Part shown: one piece after another, positions 1-61,337 of the stretch
Numbering within the stretch: position 1 is the stretch's first letter
How the letters are laid out: every line of letters starts with the position of its first letter
NCBI GenBank assembly: GCA_024867545.1
Contig: JANFNE010000027.1
Location: 496,001 to 560,000 of the forward strand
Reading direction: 5' to 3'
From: Phytopythium helicoides
Lineage: Eukaryota > Oomycota > Peronosporomycetes > Pythiales > Pythiaceae
DNA length: 64,000 nt
The notes under the pieces: generated by a model
What the model saw: the letters and a program-made list of their open reading frames with translations, nothing else
The model's database searches: none
Told to the model about the DNA's origin: nothing
Program-made: the position numbers and the translations under genes

Positions 1-2221
1 TGAGCGATGAAAGAAAAGGCGAGCGTGATTGCTGCTTGGCGCGAACAGCAAGCACTTGGGTTGGTGCGAGAGAGCTTGGTGAGCATTTGCTCGGCGCCTG
101 GTAATCCCGCCGGCCAACAGGGAGAAAAAGGTTCACATGTTTTGTTGTGTTTCATTGTCGGCGGACTGGTCTGCCGGAAACTGCGCTCCAAACTCGACAA
201 TTCGACACAACGCAGAAAGCTCCAATTCGAACAAACTAGCCTCGTTTACTTCAACGACCGCCGGTCCACTGTGTGCAGTTCCAATCGGCGGGCGGCGGCA
301 TTCCCCTCCTTACGGCTCTTCCAGCGACTCTGGGGTCCACGTCCAGCGCGGCTCAAACCCTGCGGCCAGCGTGCGTTCGCAGCTCTTGTGGTATGATATT
401 GCTCCATGGCGAGATCACACTGGCCTTCTCCCCGACCTCGCGGTCCAGCGACGTCATCGTGGCGCCATTGCTTGACCCTGCGGCTAATGCGGCGATGTAT
501 GGGCGGCACAGCCCGCGGTCACCGCGTCCAGAGGCTTCTATCGTTCTAGTTTGGGCTCTTTTGCCGCTCGCTGGACACTTTTGGCCGCGCACTCACTTCG
601 GCCCTCTTCGTGCGCGTTCTGCGCCGCCCTGACGCAAGTCACCAAGAGAGAGGAGAGCGGTCGAGAGTGTCCATGAATGCCAGGATCGAGGAGCCAGTCC
701 CCACGTGTATGCCGCTTGGACGAGCCCTTCAACATGGACGTTGAAGTGGGCTTGGACAGCGCCACGAGCGACTTGATCGGCCGTGCACACCGCAGCAAAC
801 GGCACAGTGTACTCATAGTCCCACCGTACGTGTTGGCACTGCGCTACGCTTTGGTCGCGAGCGGTCCAGCCGCGCGCCTTCATGAGCCCAACGCAGCGCG
901 CTCGGTCGGTCGGTTGCGACCACAGGAGGCGTCTTCGGGTGCGAGATTCGTGGGGTTTTGATGTCCGCACCCTTGCGTGCCCAATCGTGCCCCTGTCAGG
1001 AGCGGCCCATGCTGACTGAGGCTCGGTGCCAGAGATCCCCACGGACGCCTCAGCCTCGCACCCACCCACAGCGTCAGCAACAGCTTCCAAATTGTCATCT
1101 TCCCCATACGCTAGAGCACGAATGGGATGTACACTGCGTCGATCGAGGGATAACGGCTTAACACTGGCGCATCCGATGCATGAGCAGCGTCGGGAAAGCA
1201 CGACAGCTAGTTTGGAACGTTCCGTCCGCGGGCTTCAATCACTTCAACGTCCAGCACTGTCTGACTGGATGAACGTAAAGGGTGCTTCCGTCGTCAGTCG
1301 GGCATGCGCGAGGCTTGGTACCTAAAGCGACTGGTGAAGTGTCCTGTTGGTCGACACTAACACGTCATGCTGAGGCCGCCTGGCAGCCTCGCGTGCTCGG
1401 AGAGACCAACAAGTCGCCGCCCTCGACAGTACTATTGGCTGCGACTTTGTGTGGTATTCGGCGGATCGGTGGCTGCACAACCCGAAGAAGTGAAGCTCGA
1501 TCGGTTTTCTCGATCGAGGTGTCGACTGTGCTTGCCTCACCCCCGCCGAGAAAATGCGATCGCGTGGGTCGACGATCCTCGCTGGGTTGTCGTCTGAGCA
1601 GCTCGAATACGACTGTGATCTGCGGCCTCGTGACGCGAGTACTGCAGCTGGAGAGCGAGGGATAAGAGCAAGAAGGGGACTGCGCTGTGTGCATGAAGCC
1701 GGGCTGGTTGGCTGTATGTGCGTGCAGGACACCAATGATCAGAGATGGCTCGAGGGAAAACTCAACTTTGAGGGTTGCGACTTGTGGGATTACCGTCTAC
1801 CGCGTTGGAGATCAGCCTGGATCTGCGGGCACGAGTGTGCGCGAGCCAGGAGATGTACGCAAGCGATGCAAGGGTTTCTTAGGATTGGTCGTTGTGCGTA
1901 TGCATCATGGACGGCACCGCTGGCAACCCGACCTGCGTAGCCACGGAGGTGCGTTCTTCGATGGGCTGGCTGAGGATAAACCGCACTAGGCCACACGCGA
2001 TCTTGTGGCGCTCTTGTCGAGCCATTCAGCTATCTCCTCACCGACTCCATGGCCCGCACATGCCTGCAGCCTCGTTGCATTCCTCGCCTTCAACATGTCC
2101 GTCTAAAGTACCTTTCGTACCCATCCCAACTCCCCATCCTCAGCTTCCGCAACCTAAGCGGCCCGCGGCGGTAGGCAAGATATTCTCCTCTTCCTGCTTT
2201 CTCAGTGTCGGTCGAGTCGCC
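1..2221. other. No supportable gene; upstream region
   Basis: I see no recognisable gene here. Open frames of 60-200 codons occur on both strands (for example 593-1201 on the minus strand), but they overlap each other, lack family motifs and have the composition expected by chance in GC-rich DNA. The frame of the next gene is open back to 1892, but residues from 1892 to 2221 look like translated non-coding sequence, so I start that gene at 2222. The last few hundred bases probably hold its promoter and 5' UTR. Confidence 0.5.
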
Positions 2222-5200: not shown

Positions 5201-6178
5201 CCATCGATTCGTGCTCGTGTCTGGCCACTGGCGATCGGAAACAAGCTCAAGATTACACCCGACATGTATCAAATCTACCGGAAGCGAGCCCTTGCGTACA
5301 AACGGGAGCAATCCAGCGCCATTGGACGTGAGCACACGCTGTCCCTGATTGACACGGATTTACCTCGCACGTTCCCATCGTTGAGACTGTTCGATGCGGC
5401 AAGCGGTGGACCGTACTACGCTTTTCTCTTGGAAGTGCTGGAGACCTACGCGTGCTATCGACCCGACTTGGGGTACATCCAGGGCATGTCGTACTTGGCT
5501 GCCATGCTCTGTCTACACATGCCACAAGATCGATATTTGGCATTTCAGTGCCTCGCAAACCTCATGGTGCATGAGCACTTGTTCACATTCTACCTGCTGG
5601 ATGCAGATCTCTCTGCAGTGTACTACGTGCTGTTTGAGGCATTCTTGGAGTCACGGCTACCGGAGCTACATGCGCATTTGAAGGAGCTGGGCATCTCGAG
5701 TTCCATGTACTTGATGAACTGGCTCCAGACGCTGTTCCTCCAAGTGCTACCACTGGAGCTCGCGACCCGAGTGTTTGACAACTTCCTCCTGGACGGAACC
5801 GTGTTCCTCTTCCGTGCGGCCATGGCGATCCACGAGTTATTGGCTCCCGAGCTGCTCCGCGCCGAGATTGACGAGGCGCTACCGATCCTGCAGCGAAGTA
5901 CGGTATTTCAGGACTTGTGGCTGACACGACTCGGCGAGGATGCGCTGTTCCAATGTGTTGCCAACATTGCCGTCCCATCACATGTGTACGCGGCGCTGGA
6001 TCGAGTGGTGAACGACGCGTTCTTCTACGAGAAGCGCAACTCTGTTGGCGAGGATGCAGCAACGGTCATGCGGCGTTCAAGCGGCGGTCAGAGTGTCGGT
6101 ATCGGTCGTGTCAAGCACGAGCGGCGGCGCATGTACTCGATCAGCGATACGCTCAATGGGGTTCTGGGCGGGTTTTGA
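2222..6178 (+). CDS. PX-RCC1-TBC domain protein, putative Rab GTPase-activating protein
   Basis: An intronless 1318-aa protein. The ATG at 2222 begins the PX-like domain (residues about 5-125, with the RRYSQ signature at 46-50), a phosphoinositide-binding membrane-targeting fold. An acidic, low-complexity and helical section follows. RCC1-type repeats span roughly 473-843, with recurring 'CGxxHT' and 'WGxGExGQLG' motifs. A TBC domain spans about 985-1240. Both TBC catalytic fingers are visible: Arg1049 in 'IDTDLPRTFP' and Gln1087 in 'GYIQGMSY', so GAP activity on a Rab GTPase is likely. TBC proteins supply these two residues to Rab GTP hydrolysis; the role here is inferred. The PX plus RCC1 plus TBC combination is unusual. 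No lesion is seen. An alternative start lies upstream in the same frame but has no domain support. Confidence 0.92.
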   Translation: MALGFGALQSVQLLGFYEARHASSGRAFLAYVLQVSAAGGAFLVYRRYSQVATLAAKLHFHPAVGLPPKYALQVFPLSDEQLRARFEGLRAFVADVFAHLSRQFEAGAHHDERSPAGLDMQLFLDFCSFQRNRPPPPAKDAPLPDWARPAVAASPASSTSRRRSSWQDADSATDSEDVGLAESDANSNEDDAQTGEQQSADADAVDFRNEVLQAEGNLNALWNCVRAYVQATDAWWSAAAAVADEYQRIGDMALFKARAGDDASPLAPPSDHHARVARAVNSMVASLQPDFERRCEDDVLAPIEELTRRHLAEVKQAYWSRHEGRSAIATSAFVPSINPKRLKQERGALHDRICEDVQQSITSLLKIQNELLRTMEEQLRPLETLSLASEQVLEHEVSQKIDPSSELVAAQPTELEKCEGTVSPNEEVSAPSERTGTSNETNGIEESEEEVTQTIVQHNDVIAKLEAEEEPSRMWIWGRAPNPESGTPLFLRPKRVSPLNGQPIVQVACGGEHILYLTATGDVYSYGDNEENKFLSRGHHSDTFLTPHLVEELALEKALHRTRIVKVTCGAQHSVGITSGGELFTWGSGEDGRLGHGDMRDRALPRKVMSLLKERVIHASCGGAHTAVLTDRGSVFTFGRGRNGRLGLGDNKWRDTPHEITAFPASEKMALVTCGWNFTVALARSGDVYSWGKQGEGQCGLGYLDKDQLVPRRVEKLVSDNVRVIDIACGYTHTIALSSAGDVYSWGLGEYGQLGRGMVYQPVPERVDFGDVLCEPDRIANVYCGAFHSVVTTDRRVLFAWGLNAYGACGLGHTSNKDTPERIDCFSSDRRLVIACGHKYTVALELDPEVDGGSMTLLDQRRFSSTSMLSGSGLHPPVTLSVVTNGAEGDGIGETIGSMTSPGVVSPATLHQHQHLRDSGMHDRSDGRRSPQSTLFPGFGSVNDVSDADRRAIREKEEELRRAKKLWRTRILRNWEESKDTPLAHSLWRQGIPPSIRARVWPLAIGNKLKITPDMYQIYRKRALAYKREQSSAIGREHTLSLIDTDLPRTFPSLRLFDAASGGPYYAFLLEVLETYACYRPDLGYIQGMSYLAAMLCLHMPQDRYLAFQCLANLMVHEHLFTFYLLDADLSAVYYVLFEAFLESRLPELHAHLKELGISSSMYLMNWLQTLFLQVLPLELATRVFDNFLLDGTVFLFRAAMAIHELLAPELLRAEIDEALPILQRSTVFQDLWLTRLGEDALFQCVANIAVPSHVYAALDRVVNDAFFYEKRNSVGEDAATVMRRSSGGQSVGIGRVKHERRRMYSISDTLNGVLGGF

Positions 6179-16856: not shown

Positions 16857-17563
16857 GCTTGTCAGAGTGTGACGTGTCGGGGTGTGGGTTGAGTCTGTCC
16901 ATTGGTCAAAAATGGACGGAGCGTCGGTTGATTGGTAGAAAATGCAGTACGGCGCCTTCGAGGCGGCGCTCATGGCGACGCTCATGGCGCCGTCATGGCG
17001 TTGTGGCCGCGCGGCTTGGCCGGTTTGTCGGTCCACAGAGGCCGATTCTGCGGCGCAATCCTTCCCATCTCGCCCTGTGCGCAGTCACGCGGCCTGGCTG
17101 CGAGTCGGCTCGCCGCTCACCCGCTTGTTGGTAACGCAGCGTCTTCCTTGGATATCGCCGGCCCATCGACGAGGCGCTGCGTGGCGAGCCTCGCTTCTTC
17201 CACCGTTCCATTCCCGTCGTCCGTACTCTCCTTGCGGCGGTCTCCCCCTCCGAGCCCTTCTCTCTCTCTAACGCTTCGGGAAGAACCCGGCGTCGAGCCC
17301 ACTGGGGCCGCCAGCACAAGGCGCCACCGCCTGTACGTGGGGTGGCCGCAGCCAGCGCCCACAGCCAACGCCAACCCCACGAGCGCTTCAGCCAAGCGCC
17401 AACGCCACGGCTGCCGATCTTTCGCGCTTCCCGCCACACGGTGCCACATTGCCCCTCACCTGCAGAAAAAAGCCAGCGCTATTCCCGGATCGCCGCCGAC
17501 ACCTTCAGAAGGGAAAGTGCAAGGCAGCCACCACCTACCTGCAGGCCGCGCTCCTCGAGCGCC
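16857..17563. promoter_or_regulatory. Divergent intergenic region
   Basis: 707 bp between two divergent start codons. The frame of the right-hand gene is open from 17342, but residues before 17564 look non-coding. A pyrimidine-rich part (17195-17275) may belong to the 5' UTR of the plus-strand gene. No TATA or clear initiator was found. Confidence 0.4.
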
Positions 17564-20350
17564 ATGGACGCCGAGCGCCGCCGGCCGCCGCTGGCGCGCG
17601 GCGACTCGGCCGTCAGCGCGCGCGACTCGAGCTACTGGCTGGCGGTGGCGTCGGCGCGCTCGCTCGCGTCCGCGGGCTCCTCGGCTGGCGACTCGGCGCG
17701 CCGCGCGCTCTGGGAGCTGCGCGGCCAGGCCATCCTGCCCGCCGCCCCCGCGCCGCCAGCAGACGAGCTGGACGAACTGGCGGACGCGCTCGTGGTGCCC
17801 ACGCGCCATGCGGTGCCGCGGTCCTCGCGCGGCGTGCGGGCTCAGCGATCCATGAGCGACGACGAGGCCGCGGAGCGCCGCATGACGCGCTCCATGCCCG
17901 CGGCTTCGAGCGCGGAGCGGCGGCGGAAGGGGAGGCAGAGGCCCCCCGTCGTCGCGGAGGTCGTGTTCGAGCACCAGCGGTACCAGCACGTGCTCGGGTG
18001 GGGCTCCAAGGGACACCTGCTGCCGCTCGACCCCAGCAAGTACACACGCGCCACGCGCAAACTGCCGCTGCCGAATGGGGGCGGCGTGAGGCGGCGATCG
18101 TTCGGAGAGTATCCGTTCCGCAGTCGCTCTGCCAACACCGAGGCGGGCTCACAGAGCGAGAGCGGCGCAGCGGACTTCGAGCTGCAGGACGCCCCGGTCA
18201 AGTGGGTGCACGCAGGCACGTTCCCTGACGTGACGCTCCCCGATGTCGCAGTGCCGGTCACAGAGGAAAAGAAGAAGAAGGGCAAGCAGCGAGCCATCGA
18301 CGAGCGGGAGGAGCGTGCCAAGAAGGCGGCAGCGCTGCGCCGACTGAGTAGCACGAGCCGCTGGGAGTGGGTCAGTCCGTGGCACCTTGAGTACCCGCCA
18401 CAGTTTCCAGCCCACCAACCTCGCGATCCAGATGGTTGGGAGTACACGACGAGCTTTCAGAACTTTTCGACGCCTGAAAAAGCTTCAGAGCTTTCGATCC
18501 AGCTATTGCAAAGACTGCAGCGATCAAGAGACCAAGATGGTGAAGATGGAGAGGAGTCGTCTGAGCCCCGATTGACCAGTACTACACCAACAAGCCCGTT
18601 GGTGTTTTCCTGTTGGCAGCCCAAGTGCAATGTACGGAGGCGAAAGTGGGTAAGATTCCGCCGCCTGCGCTCCGGGCGGTCAACAAGCGAAGTACGTCTT
18701 TCGCACACGAGTGCATTTGACGACTCATTCCTTGACTCGATGAGTGGCTGGCTCAAGAAGCTTGGGCATGTTCGCAAGAACTGGAAGGCTCGCTACTTTG
18801 TGCTTGAGCGCTCTATTTTGCGGTATTACTCAGATGAGAGCCGTTCGCGCCTGAAGGGCGAAGTTCTGCTCTTCCACCCTGCAACGCGGGTCCACTACGT
18901 CGACATTCACTTGGCTGGGGGGCGAGACAACACTTTTGCTATCCAAGTTGGGGCCGAGTATACCCTGTTGCTGCAGGCGGAGCGTGTGAGTGACCGCGAG
19001 AACTGGATGTACTGCATCGAGGATGCTCTACTCTGTCGCGATTCGTATTTTCACGATCCTGACGTCGCATGTGATTTGAGGGAAAGTGTAGCCCAACGCC
19101 GCTTGCTGAGCTCCGAGGCCCTCGCTTTTGACTTGCAAGAGCGGAGCCCCGCTCTGATGTCTGGAGGAACGCGTGGGCGGGCAACGTCAGACCTAGTAAA
19201 CCTTGTCGCTTCACTGCACTCAAAGTCCGATGGGTTATTGAGAGCTGCATCCAAGAGTCCAACACTACTGCGCTTGCTTCGGCTATGTGACTACTTTCTA
19301 GAAAGCGATGAGATGAAGCACCACATTGTAGAGTTCATCACAAGGTTCAAGCACAAGTACAGCAACAGCAGCCGGCCAGTCTCTCCAGTAGCCAAAACGC
19401 CTCCAATGCGGAATTCGGACCCTCTCTTTGGCGGACTTGGGACGCCCGACACGTCTCAGCACTCTTCGCTTGGAGAGTTTCCACCAGAACTACTCAATGT
19501 GACGGTGTTGCAGGATGCTCGATCCCTGCTAGCGCTCAAGAACTATCGATTCTTCCTGGAGCGGTCACTTGAGTGCATTGTTGAACACCTTTCCGATCAG
19601 TCGTTCGCTGAAACAGCAAAGTTGACCAGCCCTCGTGGTAGTCGGCGGCCCTCGGCAACCACGACCAGACAAACTGGACCTGTAGGCGACACAGAAGCAA
19701 CTGATCCGGGCCCAACAGACGACGAGTGGCAAATGGCTCGGCGAGCTGCCTTGTTTAAATTGGAGCGCCTCACTTTTATCCCGCTGCAGGAGACGATATA
19801 TCGTTTGCTGGAATCCACTGTAGCCGAGAGTGACATGGAGCAGTTTGAACGCAATCGGCGCTATCTAGCAAGTCAGCCGCCAAGCTTTTTTGAGATTCCA
19901 AAGGCTCTGACGTCGTCAAGCGAGTGGAAATCGGCGACGCTTCTACTGAACACTATGGATAACTACTCGCTTCCGTCAGAGAAAGCATCGGTTCTCGTGG
20001 AGGTTGCACGCTGCATCTTCGACACGCAAGTACGTGAGCATGGGTACAGCGAAGACGGCGAGACAGTGACCATGATGTCGGCGGATGACTTCCTTCCGAT
20101 TTTCATATTTGTACTAACACGAAGTCGCCTGCGAAGTGTCGTGATCTCGCGGCATTTGATCAGTGAGACAATGATCACGGCGATGATGATCGGCGAGACG
20201 GGCTACTACGCAACGATGCTGGAGGCGGCTATTGGGTATATTGCATCTTTCGATCTTGATGAAGCTGTCACATCAGCGGCGACTCGTGAAAGTTTAGCTG
20301 GCCGTGTATCAACTTCTTCCGTGACAAATACTGCGAGCCTGAGCGAGTAA
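17564..20350 (+). CDS. PH and VPS9 domain protein, putative Rab guanine-nucleotide exchange factor
   Basis: 928 aa, intronless; the start at 17564 ('MDAERRRPPLARGD') is the first Met in the well-supported frame. The N-terminal half is disordered and basic. A PH domain lies at about 392-500 ('SGWLKKLGHVRKNWKARYFVL' through 'ENWMYCIEDAL'), which would bind phosphoinositides. A helical region leads to a C-terminal VPS9 domain (about 725-900). The residues that insert into Rab5-class GTPases are visible: Asp842 in 'SADDFLPIFIFVL' and Tyr881 and Tyr882 in 'GETGYYATML'. VPS9 proteins activate Rab5/Rab21-type GTPases on early endosomes; the exact Rab is unknown. With the TBC protein at 2222-6178 the island holds both a Rab activator and a Rab inactivator. 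Confidence 0.9.
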   Translation: MDAERRRPPLARGDSAVSARDSSYWLAVASARSLASAGSSAGDSARRALWELRGQAILPAAPAPPADELDELADALVVPTRHAVPRSSRGVRAQRSMSDDEAAERRMTRSMPAASSAERRRKGRQRPPVVAEVVFEHQRYQHVLGWGSKGHLLPLDPSKYTRATRKLPLPNGGGVRRRSFGEYPFRSRSANTEAGSQSESGAADFELQDAPVKWVHAGTFPDVTLPDVAVPVTEEKKKKGKQRAIDEREERAKKAAALRRLSSTSRWEWVSPWHLEYPPQFPAHQPRDPDGWEYTTSFQNFSTPEKASELSIQLLQRLQRSRDQDGEDGEESSEPRLTSTTPTSPLVFSCWQPKCNVRRRKWVRFRRLRSGRSTSEVRLSHTSAFDDSFLDSMSGWLKKLGHVRKNWKARYFVLERSILRYYSDESRSRLKGEVLLFHPATRVHYVDIHLAGGRDNTFAIQVGAEYTLLLQAERVSDRENWMYCIEDALLCRDSYFHDPDVACDLRESVAQRRLLSSEALAFDLQERSPALMSGGTRGRATSDLVNLVASLHSKSDGLLRAASKSPTLLRLLRLCDYFLESDEMKHHIVEFITRFKHKYSNSSRPVSPVAKTPPMRNSDPLFGGLGTPDTSQHSSLGEFPPELLNVTVLQDARSLLALKNYRFFLERSLECIVEHLSDQSFAETAKLTSPRGSRRPSATTTRQTGPVGDTEATDPGPTDDEWQMARRAALFKLERLTFIPLQETIYRLLESTVAESDMEQFERNRRYLASQPPSFFEIPKALTSSSEWKSATLLLNTMDNYSLPSEKASVLVEVARCIFDTQVREHGYSEDGETVTMMSADDFLPIFIFVLTRSRLRSVVISRHLISETMITAMMIGETGYYATMLEAAIGYIASFDLDEAVTSAATRESLAGRVSTSSVTNTASLSE

Positions 20351-34299: not shown

Positions 34300-35012
34300 G
34301 GGGTGGCGATCATGACAGGGGCTTAGCCCCCGAGAGAGCCGAGCTCTCTCGTGTTGGAGTGGACGCCAACAGCGTGCCCCTGTTGGTGGTCCAGGTAGAC
34401 GTGAAGGGCTACGCGGAGTCGATGAGGGTTCTCATCGACTCGGGCGCGTCGAGCAATTACGCTCGACGCGCCACGTTGGCGAAGGAGCCAAAAGCCTTCG
34501 CCGCGGTGAGAAGCAAGGAGACTTCCACCGACACCGTCGCCGTGAGGTTGGCGACGGGGAAGATCGTGGAGACCCCACTGATCTTGGCGGACCTGCGTGT
34601 CCGCTTTGAAGACTTCGACAGTGTCGAGCGCTTCATGGTGCTCGACCTGGATGAGAGGTATGATCTCATCCTCGGCATGCCATGGCTCGAAAAGCATGAG
34701 CCATGGATCGATTGGAACACCAAATCGATCGGAGCAAGTAAGCCCGCTTACTCGGACAGAGCAGTGGCGACTGGCGTCACCACTCCTGGCCGATGGCCGC
34801 GTCAACAACGACTCGAGCGTCGTGTTGACAAAGAGGAATTCCTCATTGGGGTGTCCGAAGTTGTGGACAGGCCCCTGACAGCTGCAACTGTCGAGCATCG
34901 CGATGATGCTGCTCCCGTGGCCGTGCACGGTGGAGCGCGATCGGCTTTGAGGACAAAGTCGATCTCAAGGAAGTCACATGTGACTTGGGCACCGCTGCCA
35001 ACGGAGTGCTGA
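34300..35012 (+). CDS. Gypsy aspartic protease segment
   Basis: In the frame minus one relative to gag. The active-site motif is 'VLIDSGASSNYARR' (Asp-Ser-Gly), with the flap region after it and 'YDLILGMPWLEKHEPWIDW' downstream, typical of retropepsin-like gypsy proteases. It ends at a TGA at 35010, before the RT frame opens. No in-frame ATG suits the start, so expression would need a frameshift from gag, or the frame offset is a lesion of this copy. Confidence 0.82.
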
Positions 35013-35049
35013 GGACACTCCAGCGGCTGTCAAAGGAGACAGGCCGCGG

Positions 35050-35235
35050 AGCCAAAGTGCGGCTCGGAGCGCGAGAAAGCGCGAGATTGCTCCTGCCAAG
35101 AGGCAGTGTGAGCCAGCGAGTGTTGTCGACGACAACTCGCGGAGCCAACGGGTGGCTCGGGGTGCAAGTGAACGCACCGATGCTCCTGCCAAGAGGCAGT
35201 GTGAGCCTGAGGTGTCCACGATTGGACACGCGCCG
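35050..35235 (+). repeat. 93-bp tandem duplication between protease and RT
   Basis: Two imperfect copies with a 93-bp period, starting GCGGAGCCAA at 35050 and 35143; both contain 'GCTCCTGCCAAGAGGCAGTG'. The period is a multiple of three, so it adds 31 codons without changing the frame. Confidence 0.7.
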
Positions 35236-38200
35236 ACCTATGGGTCGAGTGCCGACGGACCAGAGGGTCCCGCAGAGGTGGTAGAACCTCGTGCTGCACG
35301 GATGCAGCGTGCCGACGATGATGCGTCGAGCGTGGTGTTGCCAAACACCCCAGCACTAACCGCAGTGCAAGACGGTCGCCTGCGAGCGACGCGTCCCGTC
35401 CATCAATGGACAGAGTATAAACTCCTTGACGGAGTTTCGGGCAGAGAGATTGCCCCGGCGGTGCCACTGCACCCGCTCCCAGAAGCGAATGCTCTGGTGG
35501 AGCTGGACGAGATGTCCTTCCAGGACTTCACAGACGCCTTGCAGGGCGGTGAAGTCGCTGAAGTGGTCGTGCTAAGACCAACAGTGGCGACAGCCGAGCT
35601 CAACAGCTCGTCTGTCATGAACGAAGACGTCCTAGCGGAGGTCCGCGGCAAGGTAAATGCCCGCCGCGGCTCCGAGATCCTGAAGGATCCTAAGGATCCC
35701 TTCTACGCGGTACTCAAGGAGTACGAAGACGTGGTGTCGCAAGACCCGCCGTCTGAACTGCCACCGGATCGTGGAGTTCTGCATGAGATTGACCTCATGC
35801 CGGGCACAAAGTATTGTGTCACCAGGCAGTGGCCGCTGCCGAAAGAACAGTGCGATGTCATCGACGCGTTCTTTAAGACCAAGCATGAAGCTGGTCTAGT
35901 GAGGGAGTCGAAATCGCCTCACTCGTCGCCAACGTTTTGCGTTCGCAAACCGAACGGCAAATGGCGCATCGTGCATGCGTTCAACAAGTTGAACGCTGCT
36001 ACGATCCCGGCCCAGACGCCCATACCTCGCAAGGAGGTCATGTTGAACAACATGGCGGGCAGCACTATCCGTAGTGCGATAGACCTGACTGACGGGTACT
36101 ATCAGGTCCTCATGGACCCGGCGTCAGTACCACTGACTGCCGTCAGCACGCCAAGTGGCATGCCGTGGGAGTGGCTTGTGATGCCACAGGGGCTTTCGAA
36201 TGCCCCAGCGACGTTTAACCGTCTGGTCGTGAACTTGTTCCGACCCATGCGTGAGTACGTGCAAACGTACTTCGACGATATCTTCGTCCACAGTCGCGCC
36301 AAGGATGGCAAGACAGACGTCGAGATGCACGTCGAGCACTTGCGAACGGTGTTCGAGTGCATGAGAGCCAATAAGCTCTTCGCCAACATTGACAAGTGTG
36401 TCATTGGCGCGGAAGAGATCCCATTCCTGGGGAGCTTCCTAGGCAAGCACGGCGTGCGTGCGGACCCCGCGAAGGTCCAAGCCATTGTCGAATGGCCGGT
36501 TCCACAGAACCAGAAGGACTTACGCAAGTGGTTGGGCTTGTCCAACTACTTACACAAGCACAGCGAGAACTACGCCGAGATGGCGCGTCCGCTGTCGCTG
36601 CTCCTCAAGAAGGATGCAGAATGGCACTGGTCATCGACCGAGCAGGATGCGTTTGAACGCATCAAGGAGAGTCTTCTCCGAGCGCCAATCTTGGCGCTCC
36701 CGAACGATGAGAAGCCGTTCAGCGTCGTGTGCGACGCTTCCGATTTCGCAATCGGTTGTGCATTGCTGCAGACCGATGAGGACGGTCACGAACGCGTGAT
36801 AGCGTTCGAGTCTCGGCAGCTCAAGGCCGCCGAGAAGAACTATCCAGTTCATGACAAGGAGCTACTCGCGATGAAGTACGCTCTTGTCAAGTTCCGAGTG
36901 CACTTGCTCGGCGAACGTGAGTTCGTGGTCTACACAGACCATGCGTCGCTGAGGACAGCGACGCAGTCGCCACACCTCTCACAGAGGATGGCGCGCTGGC
37001 TGTCGTTCTTCGCGGAATATAACTTCCGCGTCGAGTACAAGCCAGGCAAGCAGAATGTGCTTGCAGACGCTCTGTCGCGTCGGCCAGACTATGAGCTGTC
37101 ACACATCGCGACGCTCACGATCGATCTGATCGATCGAATTCGTGCGGCGTATGCCGACGACGATCAGTGCACAGCACTGATCGAGCACCTGCGCAAGGCA
37201 GGGAAGGACAACTTGTCGCCGCGCCTGCGCGCGAGAGTCCATCGGTACACGTACGCGGATGGACTGCTGTATTACAGCGTGGATCCCTCGGATCCCCCTC
37301 GGATTGTGGTACCATTGGCAGAGGATCTGTGGTACCAAATCCTTTACGAGGCGCATGACGCGCTCGTAAGTGGTCATCTCGGTCGTGAGAAGACCTACGC
37401 TGCGGTAAGCAGCAGGTACTGGTGGCCCCACATGTACAAGTGGGTGGCCACGTACATCAAGACATGTGAAACATGTCAGCGCGTGAAGGCGGCTCCGTCA
37501 GCCGCCGCGCCACTGGCCAGTCTGCCAGTTCCAGCGGATTGCTGGAGGTCCGTTAGTTTGGACTTTGTCTTCGGTTTGCCGAAGGACGGCCACGGCAACA
37601 CAGGCGTGTTGGTGTTCGTGGACCGTCTGAGCAAGATGGTGCATCTGGCACCATGCTCAGAGAACATTGACGGCCCCGAAGCGGCCGCCTTGTTCATCAA
37701 GCACGTGTTCTGTGCTCATGGACTGCCTGAGTCCATCGTCTCGGACCGAGACCCGAGGTTCAATGCCTCGTTCTGGCGAGAGCTGTTCCAGCTGCTCGGC
37801 AGTCGACTGATGATGTCGACTGCAGACCACCCTGAGACGGATGGTCAGACCGAACGCGCAAACCGCGTTCTAGAGGATATCCTCCGCAGCACATGTGCTG
37901 CTGCTCCGAAGTCATGGAGCGCGAAGCTCCCGCTAGTGGAGTTCGCTATGAACAACGCCGTGCATGCCTCAACAGGCTGCACGCCGTTCTTCGTGAACCA
38001 CTTGCGGCACCCGCGAGTGCCGCTGAGCCTCGCACCGGTGGAACCCGGGGGCTCTGGTTCGAGTGGGGGAGAGGCTCGGCTTCTCCACCCACATGCTGAG
38101 GCTGAGGCGGAGTTCGCCTCCCGTTTGGCGGCTGTCAAGCCAGCCGCGTTGCGAAAGCAACTAGACGAGTTCGTCGAGAACCGTCTTGGCGTCATTGGAC

Positions 38201-38598
38201 GCGTTAGAGATGCCATGGCAGCATCGCAAGACCGACAAAAAGAACAAAGCGATAAGTCGGGTCGAAAGAATACACATGTATTCAAAGTCGGTGACTTGGT
38301 TATGCTAAATGCAAAGAACCTACCGATGAACGCGGTCACCGCGGTCACGAAGACGAAGCTGAGACCTCGCTTCATCGGACCATTCACGGTCCAAGCCGTA
38401 CACGGTAACGCGTACAGGCTCAACATCCCATCGAGGATGAAGACCCATCCGGTCTTCTACGTGGGGCTACTCAAGCCGTACCACGATCCTCAGTTGGCTG
38501 AGATGCCGGAGGATTGGAGGCAGCCACAGGCGGCGCCTCCTGCTTCGTCTCCTGCGAAGCATCAACAGGGGTTGCCCTCGCAGCAACCGCCTGTGTAG
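35152..38598 (+). CDS. Gypsy pol: reverse transcriptase, RNase H, integrase
   Basis: 1148 uninterrupted codons. RT motifs include 'FCVRKPNGKWRIVHAFNKLN', 'MPQGLSNAPATFNRLV' and the catalytic YFDD at 36268-36279. RNase H shows 'VCDASDFAIGCALLQ', 'VHDKELLAMKYAL' and 'YTDHASL'. Integrase has the HHCC finger ('SGHLGREKT', 'CETCQRVK') and a DD35E triad: Asp at 37561, Asp at 37744 and Glu at 37852. It is followed by the GPF motif 'RPRFIGPFTVQAV' and 'KTHPVFYVGLLKPY'. The frame ends with TAG at 38596, seven codons before the copia insertion. The chromodomain frame lies beyond, in the same phase once the copia insertion is discounted. Confidence 0.95.
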   Translation: MARGASERTDAPAKRQCEPEVSTIGHAPTYGSSADGPEGPAEVVEPRAARMQRADDDASSVVLPNTPALTAVQDGRLRATRPVHQWTEYKLLDGVSGREIAPAVPLHPLPEANALVELDEMSFQDFTDALQGGEVAEVVVLRPTVATAELNSSSVMNEDVLAEVRGKVNARRGSEILKDPKDPFYAVLKEYEDVVSQDPPSELPPDRGVLHEIDLMPGTKYCVTRQWPLPKEQCDVIDAFFKTKHEAGLVRESKSPHSSPTFCVRKPNGKWRIVHAFNKLNAATIPAQTPIPRKEVMLNNMAGSTIRSAIDLTDGYYQVLMDPASVPLTAVSTPSGMPWEWLVMPQGLSNAPATFNRLVVNLFRPMREYVQTYFDDIFVHSRAKDGKTDVEMHVEHLRTVFECMRANKLFANIDKCVIGAEEIPFLGSFLGKHGVRADPAKVQAIVEWPVPQNQKDLRKWLGLSNYLHKHSENYAEMARPLSLLLKKDAEWHWSSTEQDAFERIKESLLRAPILALPNDEKPFSVVCDASDFAIGCALLQTDEDGHERVIAFESRQLKAAEKNYPVHDKELLAMKYALVKFRVHLLGEREFVVYTDHASLRTATQSPHLSQRMARWLSFFAEYNFRVEYKPGKQNVLADALSRRPDYELSHIATLTIDLIDRIRAAYADDDQCTALIEHLRKAGKDNLSPRLRARVHRYTYADGLLYYSVDPSDPPRIVVPLAEDLWYQILYEAHDALVSGHLGREKTYAAVSSRYWWPHMYKWVATYIKTCETCQRVKAAPSAAAPLASLPVPADCWRSVSLDFVFGLPKDGHGNTGVLVFVDRLSKMVHLAPCSENIDGPEAAALFIKHVFCAHGLPESIVSDRDPRFNASFWRELFQLLGSRLMMSTADHPETDGQTERANRVLEDILRSTCAAAPKSWSAKLPLVEFAMNNAVHASTGCTPFFVNHLRHPRVPLSLAPVEPGGSGSSGGEARLLHPHAEAEAEFASRLAAVKPAALRKQLDEFVENRLGVIGRVRDAMAASQDRQKEQSDKSGRKNTHVFKVGDLVMLNAKNLPMNAVTAVTKTKLRPRFIGPFTVQAVHGNAYRLNIPSRMKTHPVFYVGLLKPYHDPQLAEMPEDWRQPQAAPPASSPAKHQQGLPSQQPPV

Positions 38599-38992: not shown

Positions 38993-41900
38993 TCAATGCG
39001 AAGTCCCATGGATGCCGAGAGCCGCCGTGAGTTCCGTGTGGCGAGGTCCCGGGAGCCCCTTGGTCATGATGTCGGCCAGCATCGTCGCAGTCTCGCAGTA
39101 CTCGAGCTTGACTTCACCACGCTCGACTTCGTCGCGGATGTGATGGTACTTGATGTCGATGTGCTTGGCGCGACCGTGGTTGACTGGGTTCTTGGTCATC
39201 TTGATACACGACTGGTTGTCTTCGCGGATCATGAGCTCTGGTCCCGACTTGTTCGCAGCCGCAAGGATCTCGCAAACCACGCGATGAATCCACTTGCCTT
39301 CTTGGATGGCCAGGCTGAGCGCGATGTACTCCGCTTCGATTGTCGACAGAGACACGCTTGACTGCTTCTTGCTTCCCCAACTGACCGGCGCGCCCATCAA
39401 CATGAAGGTGTAGCCGGATGTCGACTTGCGATCAGCGAGGTCACCAGCCCAGTCGGCGTCGGAGTAGCCGCGAAAGTCGATGACGTTGCCGGGCTTGAAG
39501 CAGATTCCGTGGTCCTTGGTGCCTTGCAAGTAGCGAAAGATACGCTTGACCGCAACCCAGTGCTCATCTTGCGGGTTCTCCATGAAACGCGATACATAAC
39601 CCACGGCGAACGCGATGTCCGGTCGAGTCGCTGTCATCAGATGCATCAAGGCGCCGACCGCTTCCCGAAACGGAGCGTTCACCTTGGTAGATGCGTTGCT
39701 TGGAACCAGACGTGAACTCATGTCGACTGGACTCACCACAGCCTTGCACTGGAGCATGTTGAAACGCGTGAGGATGTCGTTGATGTAGCGTCGCTGGCAC
39801 AGTGTGATGCTTCCATCGGGTCCATAGACCAACTCGACGCCAAGCACGAACGCACACTTGCCGCTGTCGGTCATCTCGAAGCACATCTTCAGATCATACT
39901 TGGTGTGTGCAATCAGCTCGATCGAGCTTCCCGTCACTAGAATATCGTCGACGTAGACCAAGATGAGCACGCAGTGGTCGTTGACGATCTTGATGTAGTG
40001 AAATGGGTCGAACGCTGACACTTGGAAGCCGATGGAGCACAAAAACTCGTCGAAGGTCTTGTTCCACACACGCGAAGCTTGCTTGAGGCCGTAGATCGCC
40101 TTCACCAGCTCAAGGCAGTCGAAGCCACCGTTCAGCTCGACGCCTTCAGGAACCACACAGTACACGACCTCCTTCATCACGCCGTATAAGAATGCCGTCA
40201 CCACGTCCAGTTGATCGAGTTGCCAACCGAAGAAGACGATGAGCGCGATCACGATGCGCAGCGTCGCGTACTTGACCACGGGCGAGAACGTCTCCGTGTA
40301 GTCGATGCCGTACTTCTGCTTGAATCCCTTGGCCACGAGTCGTGCCTTGTACTTCTCGATGGATCCGTCGGCCTTTCGCTTGATCTTGAATACCCACTTG
40401 GTGCCGATGGCGCGTTGTCCCGTTGGAAGCTTGGCCGCACGAAACACTCCTCGAAGTCGCATCGATTCCAGCTCCGCGCGAATCGCTTTGCGCCAGTGAG
40501 CTTGATCCGGACCGTTCACCGCTTCCTCGAATGTAGTTGGCTCGGAGAGGTCGGAGGCTTCAACAGCGTTGGCGCTTGCTCGCCAAAACACAGGAGGAGT
40601 CGAGGGGTCCGAGTCGTCGTGTTGGCCGCCAGATTTTTCTTCTTCGTCTTCTTGGCGCGAGGGAGAACTACGCGGCGCACTTGCTTCTTCCAATCCAACT
40701 CGGTGTCGAACAGCCCGCGATCTTCCAGCAGTGTCATCTTCAGTCGCCGATCGGCTCTTGCGCTTCCCCGCCTGCGTGTAGTCCGTTTGTCCTGGTCCAT
40801 CTTCGGCAATTTCGAGAGAGTCGAAGGCGAGATCTTCCACGTCTTCATCGGAGGGCGCTGAGAAGAAGCCGAAAGTCGATTCGTCGAAGGTGACATCGCG
40901 ACTGATGACCACCTGCCCCGCCTCGATGTCATAAACCCGATAGGCCTTTGACGCTTCTTCGTATCCGACGAACAACCCGGCACGAGACTTCGGGTCCCAC
41001 TTGAGTCGCTTCTCTTTCGGAGTCAGCACGTAAGCGCGACAACCGAACACACGCATGTGCTTCACACTTGGCTTGGACTTGTACAGAATCTCGAACGGAG
41101 TCTTGTGCTGGAACTTGGGAGACGGGAGACGATTCTTGACGTAGATGGCTGTCATCGCTGCCTCAGCCCAGAAGATCTTGTCCATCTTGGCATGGTGAAG
41201 CATGCTGCGGCCGATCGTGACGATTGTCCGGATGGCTCGCTCTGCCGTGCCGTTGGTCTGGTGCGCGTAGGGAACCGTCGTTTGCTGCTCGATGCCTTCG
41301 TCTTCGTAGAACATCTTGAGCGAGTTGGTCGCGAACTCACGCGCTCCATCATGACGTACAAACTTCACCTTCTTGCCGAACTGGTTCTGGACCTTGGTGA
41401 TGTACGTCTTGATGCAGTCCTCGCTCTCCGACTTGGCACGCAGACAGAATCCCTTCATGCATCCACTCGCTTCGTCGACGATCAACAGCAGGTATTTGCT
41501 TCCACCTAGAGAGTCTTCTTCCATGGGTCCGCAGATGTCGAAGTGGAGCAACTCGAACGTGTCGTAGTGGCGCTTGTCGCGGTTGCTTGGAAATGGCCTT
41601 TGAACCATCTTTCCTTCTTGACAGCCGCGGCACACGCTTGGTCCACTCGAGCTGGAGGGTAGCTTCGCGTCCTTGATCATTCCGTTGTCGACCATCTTGC
41701 GAAGCACCTCGACTGGAGCGTGACCCATACGCGTGTGCAGATCAACAGCTCTTCCACTGGTTGCCGCGTTAGCCGATCGCTGAGGCGTGCGAAGCCAGTA
41801 AAGCCCGTCAACGAGGTCTGCCGTCGCCACCACTTGCTTCGAAACCTTGCGCGCAACATGCATCTTGGTGCCGTCGAAGATCACTTGGAACTGGCCACTC

Positions 41901-43015
41901 TTGTTGATTTGCGGCACCGATAGAAGATTCTTGCTCATGTCAGGAACATACAGCGCGTCCTTGATCTCGATCTCGCGCTCTTCACCGTTGGGCAGAAGCA
42001 CTCGCTCGAAGATGCTTCCCACACCCTTGATTGCCGCCTTGTTGCCGTTGGCCAGCGATAGTTCGCCGTCATCTCGCTCAATCAGGCTGGCGAACTTGGC
42101 CTTGTCGTTGCAGATGTGGTGCGTTGCGCCGCTGTCGACCGCCCACATCCCGGGCATCTTCCCGCCCGTCGAAACTCCGCACTCGAGGGAAACCGCAAAC
42201 GCAACTCGCTGGTTGTCGTAGTCGTAGTCGTCGTTCCTCCATTGCGCGCTGTTGGCCCCGCGTCCACGGCCATTGCCGCCGCGTCTCGGACCTCCTCGGT
42301 TCTCGTCCTTCTGCTTGGTCCAGCACTTGTCAACCAAGTGCCCCATCTTGCCGCAGTAAGTGCACTGTCGAGGCTCTCGGTCGACACTGAACGCCTTGGT
42401 CGCGTCTTCAGTCTTCATCGCCGGAGTCTTCTCGCCTTGCCGCTTGATATGCTCATTCGTGAGCACCTTCACAACGTCTCGCGTTCGTAGCTCTGCGTTG
42501 CTCATCTCCAAGTTGAGCACAACGTTCTCGTAGCTCTTGGGGAGACTGCGCAACAAGCAGATCGCCACATCTTCATCCTCCATCTTGGCGCCGATGCTGC
42601 TGAGCTTGGCGCTGATGTTGAGGACTTCATTGCAATGATGCAACACATTGCCGCCTTCCGCCATCTCCATGCTGAAGAGCTGTCGCTTCAAGTAGATGCG
42701 ACCAGCCTTCTGCGATCCACCGTAGAGGGTCTTCAAGCGCTCCCACGCCACCCAGGCTTCCTCACAGTCGTCGACCACGTGATGGTAGTCCGCGTCCATG
42801 TGGAGCAGCATCAAGCCGAACGCGATGCTGCTTGCCTTGACGTAGTCGTCCTTGGCCCGCGGATCCGTGAAGCTGGGAGTCGTCTCGCGGTTCACGACAT
42901 GCCACGTCGACTTGGTCAGGAACACGCCACGCATGTAGCGGCTCCAAGTCGCGTAGTTGTCCCCGTTGAACTTGTCGATGGAGACCTTGGTCGAGGCGTC
43001 TTGCGCAGAGGACAT
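38993..43015 (-). CDS. Copia gag-pol polyprotein, intact
   Basis: 1340 codons from ATG 43015 without a stop. The N-terminal gag is UBN2-like ('[18 protein letters not shown]') and has a CCHC knuckle ('[14 protein letters not shown]'). The protease has '[12 protein letters not shown]'. Integrase has '[12 protein letters not shown]' and 'CRGCQEGKM' (zinc finger), '[10 protein letters not shown]', '[12 protein letters not shown]' and '[12 protein letters not shown]' (catalytic D, D, E). RT has '[20 protein letters not shown]' and YVDD at 39944-39955. RNase H has '[11 protein letters not shown]', 'EAEYIALS' and '[14 protein letters not shown]'. All key residues are kept, so the proteins could be active. 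An upstream in-frame ATG at 43030 lies inside the primer-binding site and could be an alternative start. Confidence 0.96.
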
Positions 43016-43018
43016 GGT

Positions 43019-43034
43019 GCTTGGGCTCATAACC
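43019..43034 (-). other. Copia primer-binding site, half-tRNA type
   Basis: Directly next to the 5' LTR, the minus strand reads GGTTATGAGCCCAAGC. Its complement is GCTTGGGCTCATAACC, the anticodon arm of a Met tRNA (CAT anticodon), not a tRNA 3' end. Drosophila copia primes from a cut initiator Met tRNA in the same way. The ATG at 43030 lies inside the site. Confidence 0.8.
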
Positions 43035-43382
43035 TGTTGAAGGTAGTGAGGTCTTGGACACGAAGCTTGGGCAGAGCGGAGGGAGTTCTTCACTTGGACA
43101 GAAGACCGGAGCGAAGACCACTTGAGGGGTAGAAGGAAGATTCGAAAGTGATTCGATTGAGGTCCTTAGTTCGCAACTACTTGCTACCTCTAAGCCTGCC
43201 TGTCCTTTTCTGGGTTCACTCTACTTGATTTTTTCCTGGATACTGATTCACGGCAGCCAATCCTATCTTGAACCCACAACTTCCTACCCACTAGTTGGCG
43301 TAATCGATGACCGTGAGCAATGTGGGATCGCATTGGACTGCCTCGGGCTAGTCAGTCCAGGTCAAACCGGCTACCCTCAACA
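43035..43382 (-). repeat. Copia 5' LTR, 348 bp
   Basis: TGTTGAGGG...CTTCAACA on the minus strand; followed by the primer-binding site. Lacks the 19-bp segment present in the 3' LTR and in the solo copy at 28489. Confidence 0.95.
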
Positions 43383-57660: not shown

Positions 57661-57952
57661 CGTTGTGGTCCACATCGGCCTCGCCTCAGCCAAGGTGAGG
57701 TGCCGGGTATCAGCAGTGGTGATCGATATCAATGGTGTCGACCATCAGTGATGGCGGATATCGCTGCGACATTCTCGGTCTGACACGTGTCACACGGGGG
57801 TCCCACCACCGCCTCTCTAAAACGATACCAGCTTCTCCACACGTGTGCAATGAAGTAACGATTTTGATCAAATAAGTCGCTGCGATACGCGCACGTTGAA
57901 CTGCGTCTTGAACTGCGTTACCGTACTCTAATTAGTTATTTCCTGATCTGCC
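57661..57952. other. Upstream region of the Fanzor gene
   Basis: No gene. AT content rises close to the start codon (TAATTAGTTATTTCC at about 57929), compatible with a promoter/5' UTR. Confidence 0.35.
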
Positions 57953-60769
57953 ATGGCGAGGAAGTGTCCCCCGCCAAAGAATCCCCCTGCGGCACCAAGT
58001 GCCGGTGCCGCTCACGAAGCCGTGCACGAGTCGCATGATGCTAAGCCATCTCCCCGAATGAAGAGAGTCAGGCGTGGCCAAGAGGATGAAGCTGATGCCT
58101 GCAATTATCAACCACCAGATGTGCTCCCTACGGCTACATCTGACGAGATCGTTTAGTGGGAGGTTGACGAACAATCAACGCTTTCTGCACTCCCGAGCGA
58201 GCATGGAGGCAGGCGCCCAGATGTCGCCCAGCGCATCACGGACAACAAGAACGTAGACTTCTTCGTGTGCAAGCAGACTCTTCAAGCGTTTGCCCGGCCT
58301 GAGGGACGTGGCCTCGCGCTCGACGAGTGTCTTCTCGAGATGAACCAAGTAGTCGGGGACGCGTATCTGCTCGCCAATCTTTTTGCTTTGCGACAACTGG
58401 AGAGGCATTTGCCACTACCAAAGCTCGACCAACAGTTCTTTCAGACGGTCTTGAGCCTGGTTACGAACTAAGAGCGGCGCTTGCCACTTGAACAACAGGA
58501 CCTGATGGATGCTACAAATGATTTCAACACCATGCGTGCAGACGCTCCAATAGCAAACACATAAATAAAGGGTGGTTTCCATCTACTGCGAGGCAGATGA
58601 CGACAAACGTGAAGAACCACGTCTTCATGAACTTTGGGCGACACACGAGAACCTACATCAAGGACCGCTACAAGCTATCGAAGGTGAATGCGCACGAGGT
58701 GATGAACAGGATCTTTGACACCGAGCCCTTCACATTGACACTTGGTCGTCTGGCAGATCCAGCAGGAGCGGAACTGCGTTCCAAGATTATGCGGACTGAA
58801 ACAGGCAAGATCAGTTGGGCTCCAAAGGATTTGTTGCCTGTGCTCTATGAGATTTTGGTATGGATTGAGCAGTGGAACGCTGAGAACCGAGGCGAGATAG
58901 GGTTTGTTGAGAAGCGTCGATTCTGTATTCTTCCAACTAAGAAAGGCTTCACAGCTAGCCACTTCAAAATCGACTCGACTGCCTTCCGGTCTCTGCTGCT
59001 CCGCAGCCCTGCTGTGTTCCGTGATTTGGTAATCGAGCACGATGGAGAATTCTGGACGCTTGAACAGAGTCTGAAGAGAAGTGCTCCGTGGAACGAGATG
59101 GCGGGAGCTTGGTAGCGCGTCTTTTTTCCGAATTGAGAAGGTTGAGAAGAGAGTGTCTGGTTCTTTTCATCACCAGATCACAACGGATGGATTTAGCGTC
59201 TCTGCTCACATGACTCGACCAACGAGTGGCAAGCCCAAGCAACGGAAAGTCCGCAATAAGACAAGTGAGGGGTCACCAAACGAATCGGATGTGTACGGAA
59301 TCCCGCTCTCTACATCGCCAAAAGGTTGGATTGACGACTACGATGTCGTATGGGGCGTCGATCCTGGACGGACCGATTTCATCTCTTCGGTCAGCCTCGA
59401 CGGGAGGCGTTTGCGATTTCGAACGTCTGACTTTCGCCGCGCGAGTGGCTACAACCGATCCAACCGCAAATCGAAAAACCGAATCGACAGAAATCCTCAC
59501 ATCCGAGAGCAGCTTCGTGCGACGCCATCAAAGAAAACCGCGTCCTCGGCGAGGTTTCGAGTCAGTGTCGAGTTCTGGCTGGCAAATGCGCGGGAACTAC
59601 TGCTGTATTTCATGGACCCATAGTTTCGGAAGCTCCGATTTCAAATATTTTCTCTCAGCAACGCGCAGTTGGACCGAACATGCTCGAAGCTCGCAGGCGG
59701 ACGAGGAACTCGGACACTCATTGATTTTGGTGATCGTGGGATGGCAGGGAATAGGTTTATCAAAAGCTGTGTCGCGGGTCCCGTGACGCATTTGCCAGTT
59801 ATGTGAGGTCGTTGTTGTAGATGAATTTCGAACGAGTAAAGTTCACAACTGTAACGCTTCTTGTTCACGTAAGTGAGTCGGGATCGTTTTCCCGAGTCGT
59901 ATAGCTCGTCGGTCCTTCCGTGCACCGTCGAACCACGTCACACCCACACACTGCTGGCGGTCGGAGCGTCCTCCACGCTAACCGCCGGCTGCCGCCTATT
60001 TGTATTAGCTCTCAGGCCCAGTTCACTCGTTCGTCTACTTCTACTTCACGGCCGACTCTGCTCCAGCGCCTCCTCAGACTATCGTCCGACAGCTCTCCAC
60101 CCACAGTCTGTCTGTGCAGCGGTCCACCTCGGCCTCCCAGTCCTCGCCCACGCCGATCGCAAACCCGTTCGTGCCGCAGCCGTCGCCTCCCTCGTTCTCC
60201 GTGCCTTCCTGCTCCTTCTTGCCTCCTTCCGTTCACTTGCCACCCAGCTGAATCCCCTGCTGTCTGGTCTCGGGGACAATTCGTAAGTGCTGCCGGCAGC
60301 CCACAGCCCTCGCGCTGCCAGCACCAGCCCTTGTGCTCGCCGCTTCACGTCCACAGCTGACACTTGCGGTTCTTCCTGAGTCCTCGCGGTCCCACGCTGA
60401 CGTGCGGGTGCGTCCTCCTTGTCAGCTGCTCGGCCTCGTTTCACCGGCCGGATCTCTTCTGCCTCCTCAACGTTCACATCCTCGTCGATGACGCTGACCT
60501 CACGCCCTGCCGGGTCCTGCGCGATCCACCAGTCGTGCCACTCGTTACACTACGACTGCAACTCACGAGACGACCTGGTGAATCAGTGGGTCCTGCGAAA
60601 GTGTCGCGATAGAATAGTGAGAATGGTTCCTGTCCACAAAGTTCAGCACTGCGTCGGCTGCGGTTTGACGGTGGACCGACATGTGAATGCCGCCAAGAAT
60701 ATCCTAAGTGTGGTCAAGTGCCAGCTTCTGGGTATCCACGGTCGACCGTCACGACTCAAACGCAATTAG
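57953..60769 (+). pseudogene. Fanzor (eukaryotic TnpB-like RNA-guided endonuclease), decayed
   Basis: Plus-strand reading from ATG 57953. The N-terminal part is 'FFVCKQTLQAFARPEGRG', 'LALDECLLEMNQVVGDAYLL' and 'LPLPKLDQQFFQTV'; the middle is 'FGRHTRTYIKDRYKL' and 'RRFCILPTKKGFTASHFKID'. Before the nuclease comes 'FHHQITTDGFSVSAH'. RuvC-I is 'VVWGVDPGRTDFIS' (Asp codon 59360). RuvC-II is 'VVVVDEFRTSKVHNC' (Glu codon 59823). The zinc-finger/RuvC-III block is 'VHKVQHCVGCGLTVDRHVNA' at about 60633-60692, where the usual DRDxNAA is DRHVNAA. Stops at 58154, 58469, 58562 and 59621 and frame changes near 58570, 59110 and 59800 make it non-functional. Fanzors are OMEGA-type nucleases guided by a non-coding RNA; no guide RNA could be identified here. 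Confidence 0.85.
59870..60562. mobile_element. 693-bp insert in the Fanzor gene between TCACG repeats
   Basis: TCACG occurs at 59865-59869 and 60563-60567; treating the stretch between as an insertion brings the RuvC-II and zinc-finger codons into one frame. The left edge also makes a perfect 5' splice site (GTAAGTGAG at 59869), and an AG at 60568-60569 gives an in-frame acceptor, so it could be, or act as, an intron. The insert is pyrimidine-rich (about 60000-60500), has no recognisable ORF and no obvious terminal inverted repeats. Confidence 0.55.
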
Positions 60770-61337
60770 GGAACAAGTAACAACAAGAAATCTCAGCCCA
60801 TCCATTACGTGTTGGAACCAGGACAAGCTCCCTGGACCTGGGTGGACCCGAACTTGTAATAGAGAGCTGCTCGACACATGCATCGGTACAAGGAGAGGCG
60901 TGGCTGACCGCCAATTCTTCTCACAACAAAAAAGAAGAAGTCGGCATTACGAGGACGGTCACACTCTTTTTTCGCGTCAATGGTCGCTCGGGAGGCAGCT
61001 GATCGCACGCGAAGATGGAGCTTGGGTGGTCGAAGAGTTGCTGGGCGCAGTTTTCTGCTGCCTTCGCAGAGCATGACCAGCCACAGAGTTTTCGCAGCGA
61101 GTCGGAAACAGTTATAGTGCAGGTGCATTTGCTTTGCAGTAACTTCTAGTAATAGTTTGTATCGCAGCAAAACACGAAGTGTAGTCACGTGACTATGTGT
61201 TGGTCATAAGTAGAGCATGAACAGCTTCCATAATGACTCAAAACGAGGTTAGAAATCGGGTGAAACGACAAGAGTGGACTTCAGAAGCATGAACAAGGGC
61301 AAACCCTTTCTAAACCGTTATAAAATTATTTAGAATT
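60770..61337. other. 3' flank of the Fanzor gene
   Basis: No gene. A small hairpin CCAGG/CCTGG lies at 60818-60835. AT-rich sequence with 'GTTATAAAATT' at about 61318 could be the promoter of the following gene remnant. Confidence 0.35.

Follow-up and report, generated by a model that had tools for sequence, protein, structure and literature searches.

A decayed Fanzor1 element in the oomycete Phytopythium helicoides with a candidate omega RNA behind its gene

Introduction

Fanzors are eukaryotic RNA-guided nucleases carried by transposable elements. The locus described here lies in a window of 64 kb (C21:496001-560000) of the Phytopythium helicoides genome (49.06 Mb in 100 contigs). It raises the question of what a broken Fanzor-like reading frame is the remains of, and of what else has been conserved with it. 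We conclude that it belongs to a dead Fanzor1 element with a structured RNA directly behind the gene, and that in unbroken relatives this RNA would act as an omega RNA in guided cleavage, a reading to which we give a probability of roughly three in four.

Fanzor1 in oomycetes was published in 2013 by Bao and Jurka, who described transposons of Pythium ultimum, Phytophthora and Albugo (element prefixes PUl, PSo, PCa, PRa and Ala; PMC3627910); in the parts of that paper available to us a guide RNA is nowhere described, and the termini of PUl-5, PUl-6 and PCa-1 are stated to be undetermined. A later study provides omega RNAs for 20 loci from ten organisms (PMC10432273); its main text contains neither "oomycet" nor "Phytophthora", although an oomycete among the ten could be named in its tables. 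In the Fanzor literature searched, as far as its text was available, we met no oomycete Fanzor with a described omega RNA. While the presence of Fanzor1 in oomycetes is known, the candidate novelty, as judged from sequence, is a covarying 3' RNA which is found also where no Fanzor ORF lies nearby.

The element and its copies

The original prediction, made from the letters of the window alone, placed a Fanzor gene at 57953-60769. The gene is indeed there, and it lies inside a longer element, delimited by the stretch shared with a sibling copy on the same contig (Table 1). A Phytophthora citrophthora relative (P0001) and a paralog from contig C12 of the host were used as tblastn queries against positions 57800-61200. 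They gave five collinear matches (57953-58561, 58543-59127, 59099-59818, 59787-59846 and 60545-60841) in frames 1, 3, 1, 2 and 1 respectively, with a best linked E-value of 1.6e-132, and the pieces are 45-70% identical to the P. citrophthora protein. Sixteen control tiles of 3.4 kb (window positions 1-54400) gave at most 25.4 bits with the same queries. The protein can therefore be followed over most of its length, as had been proposed, and the blocks VDPG, DEFRTSK and HCVGCG...DRHVNAAKN are present, collinear and on the plus strand.

Table 1. Features of the window element and positions of its relatives (window coordinates unless a contig is named)
Feature	Position	Strand	Remarks
Whole element copy	57876-61152	+	Homology to sibling copy; flanks unlike on either side
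5' end TCGCTGCGA	57877-57885	+	
Fanzor1 ORF remains, N-terminal part	57953-58561	+	Two in-frame stops; tblastn
Fanzor1 ORF remains, second part	58543-59115	+	Different frame, stop at end; tblastn
Fanzor1 ORF remains, RuvC part	59099-59803	+	One in-frame stop; tblastn
RuvC-I VDPG	59357-59368	+	Asp corresponds to SpuFz1 D383
Fanzor1 ORF remains until insert	59787-59849	+	Third frame; tblastn
RuvC-II DEFRTSK	59820-59840	+	Glu corresponds to SpuFz1 E541; Fanzor-type shifted glutamate
Later insert, about 700 bp	59850-60549	.	TIR of 7 bp, TGTAACG/CGTTACA; missing from sibling Fanzor copy
Fanzor1 ORF remains, zinc ribbon and RuvC-III, through stop codon	60550-60769	+	tblastn
DRHVNAAKN block	from 60674	+	C-terminal motif
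RuvC-III position (SpuFz1 D606)	60680-60682	+	His here (DRH); His in sibling too
Conserved structured RNA, candidate omega RNA scaffold	60792-60951	+	Five helices in relatives
CTCAGCCCATCC motif			Near expected start of candidate omega RNA
Subterminal TCGCAGCGA	61092-61100	+	Inverted match to 5' end TCGCTGCGA; 49 bp ahead of 3' end
3' terminus GTAACTTCTAG	61139-61149	+	Followed by TA
Sibling copy	C21:572955-575555	minus	About 16 kb past window copy; also broken
Unbroken relative, 710 aa	C12:131849-133978		Genome search
Unbroken relative, 753 aa	C24:1977791-1979917		Genome search
662-aa family, example (L038)	C57:1724000-1728000		Genome

The sibling is 94% identical to the window copy over 1992 alignment columns and 96% over a further 618. 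Since the homology stops at both element ends and the flanks are unlike, the pair fits transposition rather than local duplication. In the right flank of the window copy, outside the element, GTATCGCAGC at 61159-61168 is the exact inverse of the stretch 57879-57888 at the 5' end; the sibling flank differs and the match may be due to chance.

The last frame change of the window copy coincides with the insert of about 700 bp, which the original prediction did not mention. The insert is found at four places in the genome counting the window, the others being two on C41 and a partial one on C33. It shows a possible 4-bp target duplication with one mismatch.

Better preserved copies, whose existence the original prediction had supposed, do occur: the genome contains stop-free paralog frames, of which those on C12 and C24 are the closest unbroken relatives (48% identical to a sibling fragment of 395 aa). 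PF07282 has 46 matches genome-wide, many of them within long open frames. The oomycete origin that had been proposed agrees with the protein relatives, found in P. citrophthora, P. nicotianae, P. cinnamomi and Nothophytophthora. A local cluster of five Fanzor frames of 713-808 aa, on both strands, occupies 33 kb at C58:205515-238500.

A separate Fanzor1 family of 662 aa has four copies which are 97.9-98.9% identical to a fifth in the main alignments. All 20 ends taken from the best-scoring matches of this family finish in ..GGCGAGTGCTAGCA; among five copies examined earlier three have this terminus and two diverge past GAGTG. A 22-base pattern of the 3' end (up to two mismatches) occurs 121 times in the genome and is absent from the control. 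The approximately 121 3'-end copies, with five copies about 98-99% identical, suggest a recent burst. A protein labelled as coming from a Thermoplasmata archaeon MAG (P0035) matches the oomycete 662-aa Fanzor1 at 46%, which may be contamination or transfer.

Element ends and the nature of the carrier

The lineage has a recurrent 3' end. With search patterns written from the ends themselves, 20 ends were found in 24 loci (four loci gave none), 94-245 nt past the start of helix 5 of the RNA described below. The distance is nearly constant within a subfamily (139-141, mostly 147-156, or 233-245 nt). The end is CTAG in 17 of 20 cases, the next base is T in 19 and the next two are TA in 18, while the flanks beyond are unlike. 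The window element has retained its 3' end, and the terminus proper is probably the CTAG at 61146-61149.

Assignment of the carrier to Helitrons was considered but is not made here. A Helitron would have a hairpin, a CTRR end and a T beyond it at the 3' side; the CTAG and T given above recur in most of the ends found, and as judged by folding a hairpin lies directly before the 3' end in some loci and is absent in others. The 5' start expected of a Helitron, TC preceded by A, is not seen, the base ahead of TC being G in each of the two C21 copies. We therefore call the elements rolling-circle-like only. The genome has 33 matches to PF14214, a Helitron-like N-domain. At the 5' end of the 662-aa family a hairpin can be recognized by eye, and an inverted match, an exact 9-mer in two of five copies, lies in subterminal position. 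The ends of this family resemble those of CRe-1,2,3, Fanzor1 elements within Helitron2 which have a 5' hairpin and a short 3'-subterminal inverted repeat (PMC3627910, as available to us), a likeness of end architecture alone, apart from any RepHel sequence link. A Fanzor2/IS607 carrier was discarded, there being no PF00239 (serine recombinase) match in the genome.

A conserved structured RNA behind the ORF

The original prediction had alluded to an OMEGA RNA, and a candidate can now be placed 3' of the ORF. We aligned the region from nine loci of four diverged subfamilies, C14 and C28 being counted as one, and obtained a structure of five helices with RNAalifold and adjustment by hand. In these nine rows 89.5% of cells pair, compared to 40.8-48.9% when the partners are slid by 1-3 columns, the structure having been derived from the same sequences. 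Seventeen cells are changed on both sides, a number reached by none of 500 shuffles, and six pairs have changes on both sides, which 53 of 500 shuffles equalled. In an alignment of 22 rows (21 distinct) fitted to a covariance model, with L082, L099 and L101 left out, 89.8% of cells pair compared to 42.7-52.9% when slid, and ten pairs have both-side changes, reached by two of 500 shuffles; related copies inflate these covariation counts. The number of further standard pair types was no better than in shuffles (498 of 500 for nine rows and 445 of 500 for 22). Pairing is 75-77% of cells in helix 3, and the window copy lacks a short stretch in helices 3-4, the rest being largely kept. Comparison of one representative per subfamily shows greater similarity in the RNA than at the end of the coding region for all six pairs of the four (77.9-85.4% against 70.6-75.9%, ungapped columns only).

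Across 39 sources the covariance model gave ten matches, all behind ORFs or remnants of this Fanzor lineage; nine are the training rows and the tenth, L082, lies behind another Fanzor remnant. It matched none of the examined loci of the 662-aa family or of other Fanzors in the genome, and Rfam at gathering thresholds found nothing in the window. For the 662-aa family, comparison of its RNA with that of a distant relative shows some compensatory pairs and some broken ones, in two families only. The motif may extend to other species: in the P. citrophthora protein, and likewise in one from Nothophytophthora, the frame continues beyond the position of the window's stop and reads QPIH, the peptide of the first bases of the RNA, which suggests from protein sequences alone that the motif is conserved.

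The RNA is not confined to sites at which a Fanzor is seen. A pattern of 20 bases taken from helix 5 (up to two mismatches) has 23 occurrences in the genome and three in the control, and eight of the 23 were already in the set. Among the 15 further sites 14 match the covariance model at E<=6.7e-6, partly by construction since they were selected by the helix-5 pattern, and one (L101) does not. Two (L090 and L100) have a Fanzor C-terminus just upstream of the RNA by tblastn, and at the other 13, including L101, tblastn found no Fanzor within about 0.65 kb before the motif, where a more distant ORF is possible. Four sites (L091, L092, L093 and L097) share one common non-Fanzor body. At the Fanzor-less L089, homology to a Fanzor element starts 4 nt ahead of the RNA and extends to the 3' end.

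These properties recall SpuFz1, the Fanzor1 of Spizellomyces, whose omega RNA lies between the stop codon and the 3' end and reaches 14-15 nt into the flank, and which has "ghost" elements with the same 3' region and no ORF (PMC10432273, in the parts available). The two lineages agree in the positions of the RuvC triad (the third residue being altered in the window copy), in the place of the RNA and in the existence of ORF-less elements; they differ in that SpuFz1 has 30-nt inverted repeats and a 75-nt scaffold (same source, same parts). The parallel in position and in ghost elements makes an omega RNA the likeliest reading, and on this analysis 60792-60951 is probably the omega RNA of the lineage, carried also by elements without a Fanzor. 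As about 230-360 nt separate the start of the RNA from the end of the element, a transcript reaching that end would be far longer than the SpuFz1 scaffold.

Alternatively, the 3' module could be a DNA end recognized by a transposase or replicator, its fold being incidental and no omega RNA being made. The module does occur where the examined upstream sequence holds no Fanzor ORF and does finish at a recurrent terminus, non-autonomous elements require their ends in any case, and some of the covariation measures fail to exceed shuffles. However, the distance of its start from the end goes well beyond a terminal hairpin, pairing survives the changes on both sides in both alignments, and the many G-U pairs of its helices are better suited to RNA than to DNA. 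We consider this explanation unlikely but not negligible.

Proposed activity of unbroken relatives

With the 3' module read as an omega RNA, unbroken relatives would transcribe it with a scaffold starting just past the stop codon. The transcript would extend to the 3' end of the element, and adjoining host sequence would thereby serve as the guide. Bound to this RNA, the Fanzor protein would cut matching DNA through its RuvC centre, and guided cutting would favour retention or copying of the element and may have a role in transposition.

A further possibility, tentative and in our view somewhat doubtful, is that the RNA module has become uncoupled from the Fanzor gene, the dispersed Fanzor-less elements which share scaffold and 3' end producing trans-acting guides. 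Each insertion site would then provide a guide of its own for Fanzor proteins produced from other loci, and such genome-wide guides could home or protect rolling-circle-like elements. A Fanzor1 lineage with a covarying 3' RNA and RNA sites lacking a nearby Fanzor ORF provides a direct test system for trans-acting omega RNAs.

Assignment to Fanzor1

The Fanzor identity originally proposed was borne out by a profile of the lineage (11 sequences, one of them a sibling piece) searched against solved structures. It matches SpuFz1 at E=1.9e-16, GtFz1 at 4e-5 and the TnpB-like L79 protein at 0.0098, with no further solved structure at E<=1, so that the rival family which would have spoken against the proposal did not appear. 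A profile is required here, since single-sequence PDB searches returned nothing with the C12 paralog (E<=1) or with one window piece (E<=10). All six Foldseek matches at E<=0.001 obtained with the AlphaFold model of the P. citrophthora relative are Fanzor chains, which is weak support as the mean pLDDT is 54.5 and the RuvC part is mostly below 50. In a Pfam scan of nine window frames the zinc-ribbon piece was the only one to touch any family, reaching 18.1 bits with PF07282 on its own, below the cut-off of 26.3; the sibling piece (33.8) and an unbroken paralog (31.1) exceed it.

The catalytic residues were mapped onto SpuFz1 by profile alignment, the fusion-protein numbering being converted by hand. 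The SpuFz1 triad is D383, E541 and D606 (PMC11423790, in the parts available). As the original prediction had it, VDPG is RuvC-I, its Asp aligning with D383, and DEFRTSK is RuvC-II, its Glu aligning with the catalytic E541. D606 corresponds to the second Asp of DRD in the lineage. VDPG is present in both the window and sibling copies, and IDPG or VDPG in those relatives of the lineage that retain the region. A mark of Fanzors is a shifted RuvC-II glutamate, six residues ahead of the zinc ribbon (PMC10711439, in the parts available), and in the sibling DEFRTSK is indeed followed by H-x-x-C.

The first zinc ligand of the lineage is His and the remaining three are Cys, whereas SpuFz1 has Cys at the first position in the profile alignment. 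Of 66 listed homologs 44 were readable, with 29 H-x-x-C, seven C-x-x-C and eight other, several of the last being misplaced by the pattern. Strict C4 patterns would overlook this branch of Fanzor1.

PF07282 is common to TnpB and Cas12f, and the ORF might on that account derive from another RuvC-fold family (TnpB, Cas12 or an unrelated transposase). This is very improbable: Fanzor1 proteins are the best matches of both profile and fold, and both the DPG motif and the shifted glutamate are characteristic of Fanzors. A RuvC family unrelated to these is ruled out by the profile search and the Foldseek matches.

State of the window copy

The sequence confirms 57953-60769 as a decayed Fanzor1 gene within a dead copy of an oomycete transposable element. 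The in-frame stops end at 58156, 58471, 59115 and 59623, and the tblastn pieces give four frame changes, in line with the at least four stops and at least three frame changes first reported. With the insert and a His at the D606 position in addition, the copy has none of the integrity of a working nuclease and is incapable of making a Fanzor protein.

The altered residue appears particular to the two C21 copies: the RuvC-III Asp is present in L071, another copy of their subfamily, in the C12, C24 and C14 paralogs and in every homolog where the pattern located the motif. The third catalytic residue of GtFz1, also a Fanzor1, is likewise not Asp; it is Asn in an active protein, in contrast to the His of the dead window copy (PMC11423790, in the parts available). 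His alone is therefore no proof of inactivity, which is established by the stops. That the pieces of the window copy make up a functional gene by way of introns or frameshifting, an idea to which the traceability of most of the protein lends itself, is the least credible alternative of all, given that two paralogs are single open frames, that the insert has three further genomic matches, that the third catalytic residue is altered and that the breaks of the sibling partly differ.

Elsewhere in the window are two retroelement frames, one of Gypsy type (34984-38598, 1204 aa) and one of copia type (38993-43165, 1390 aa), and two likely host genes, encoding an RCC1-repeat/TBC protein of 1431 aa (1883-6178) and a PH/VPS9 protein of 1071 aa (17135-20350).
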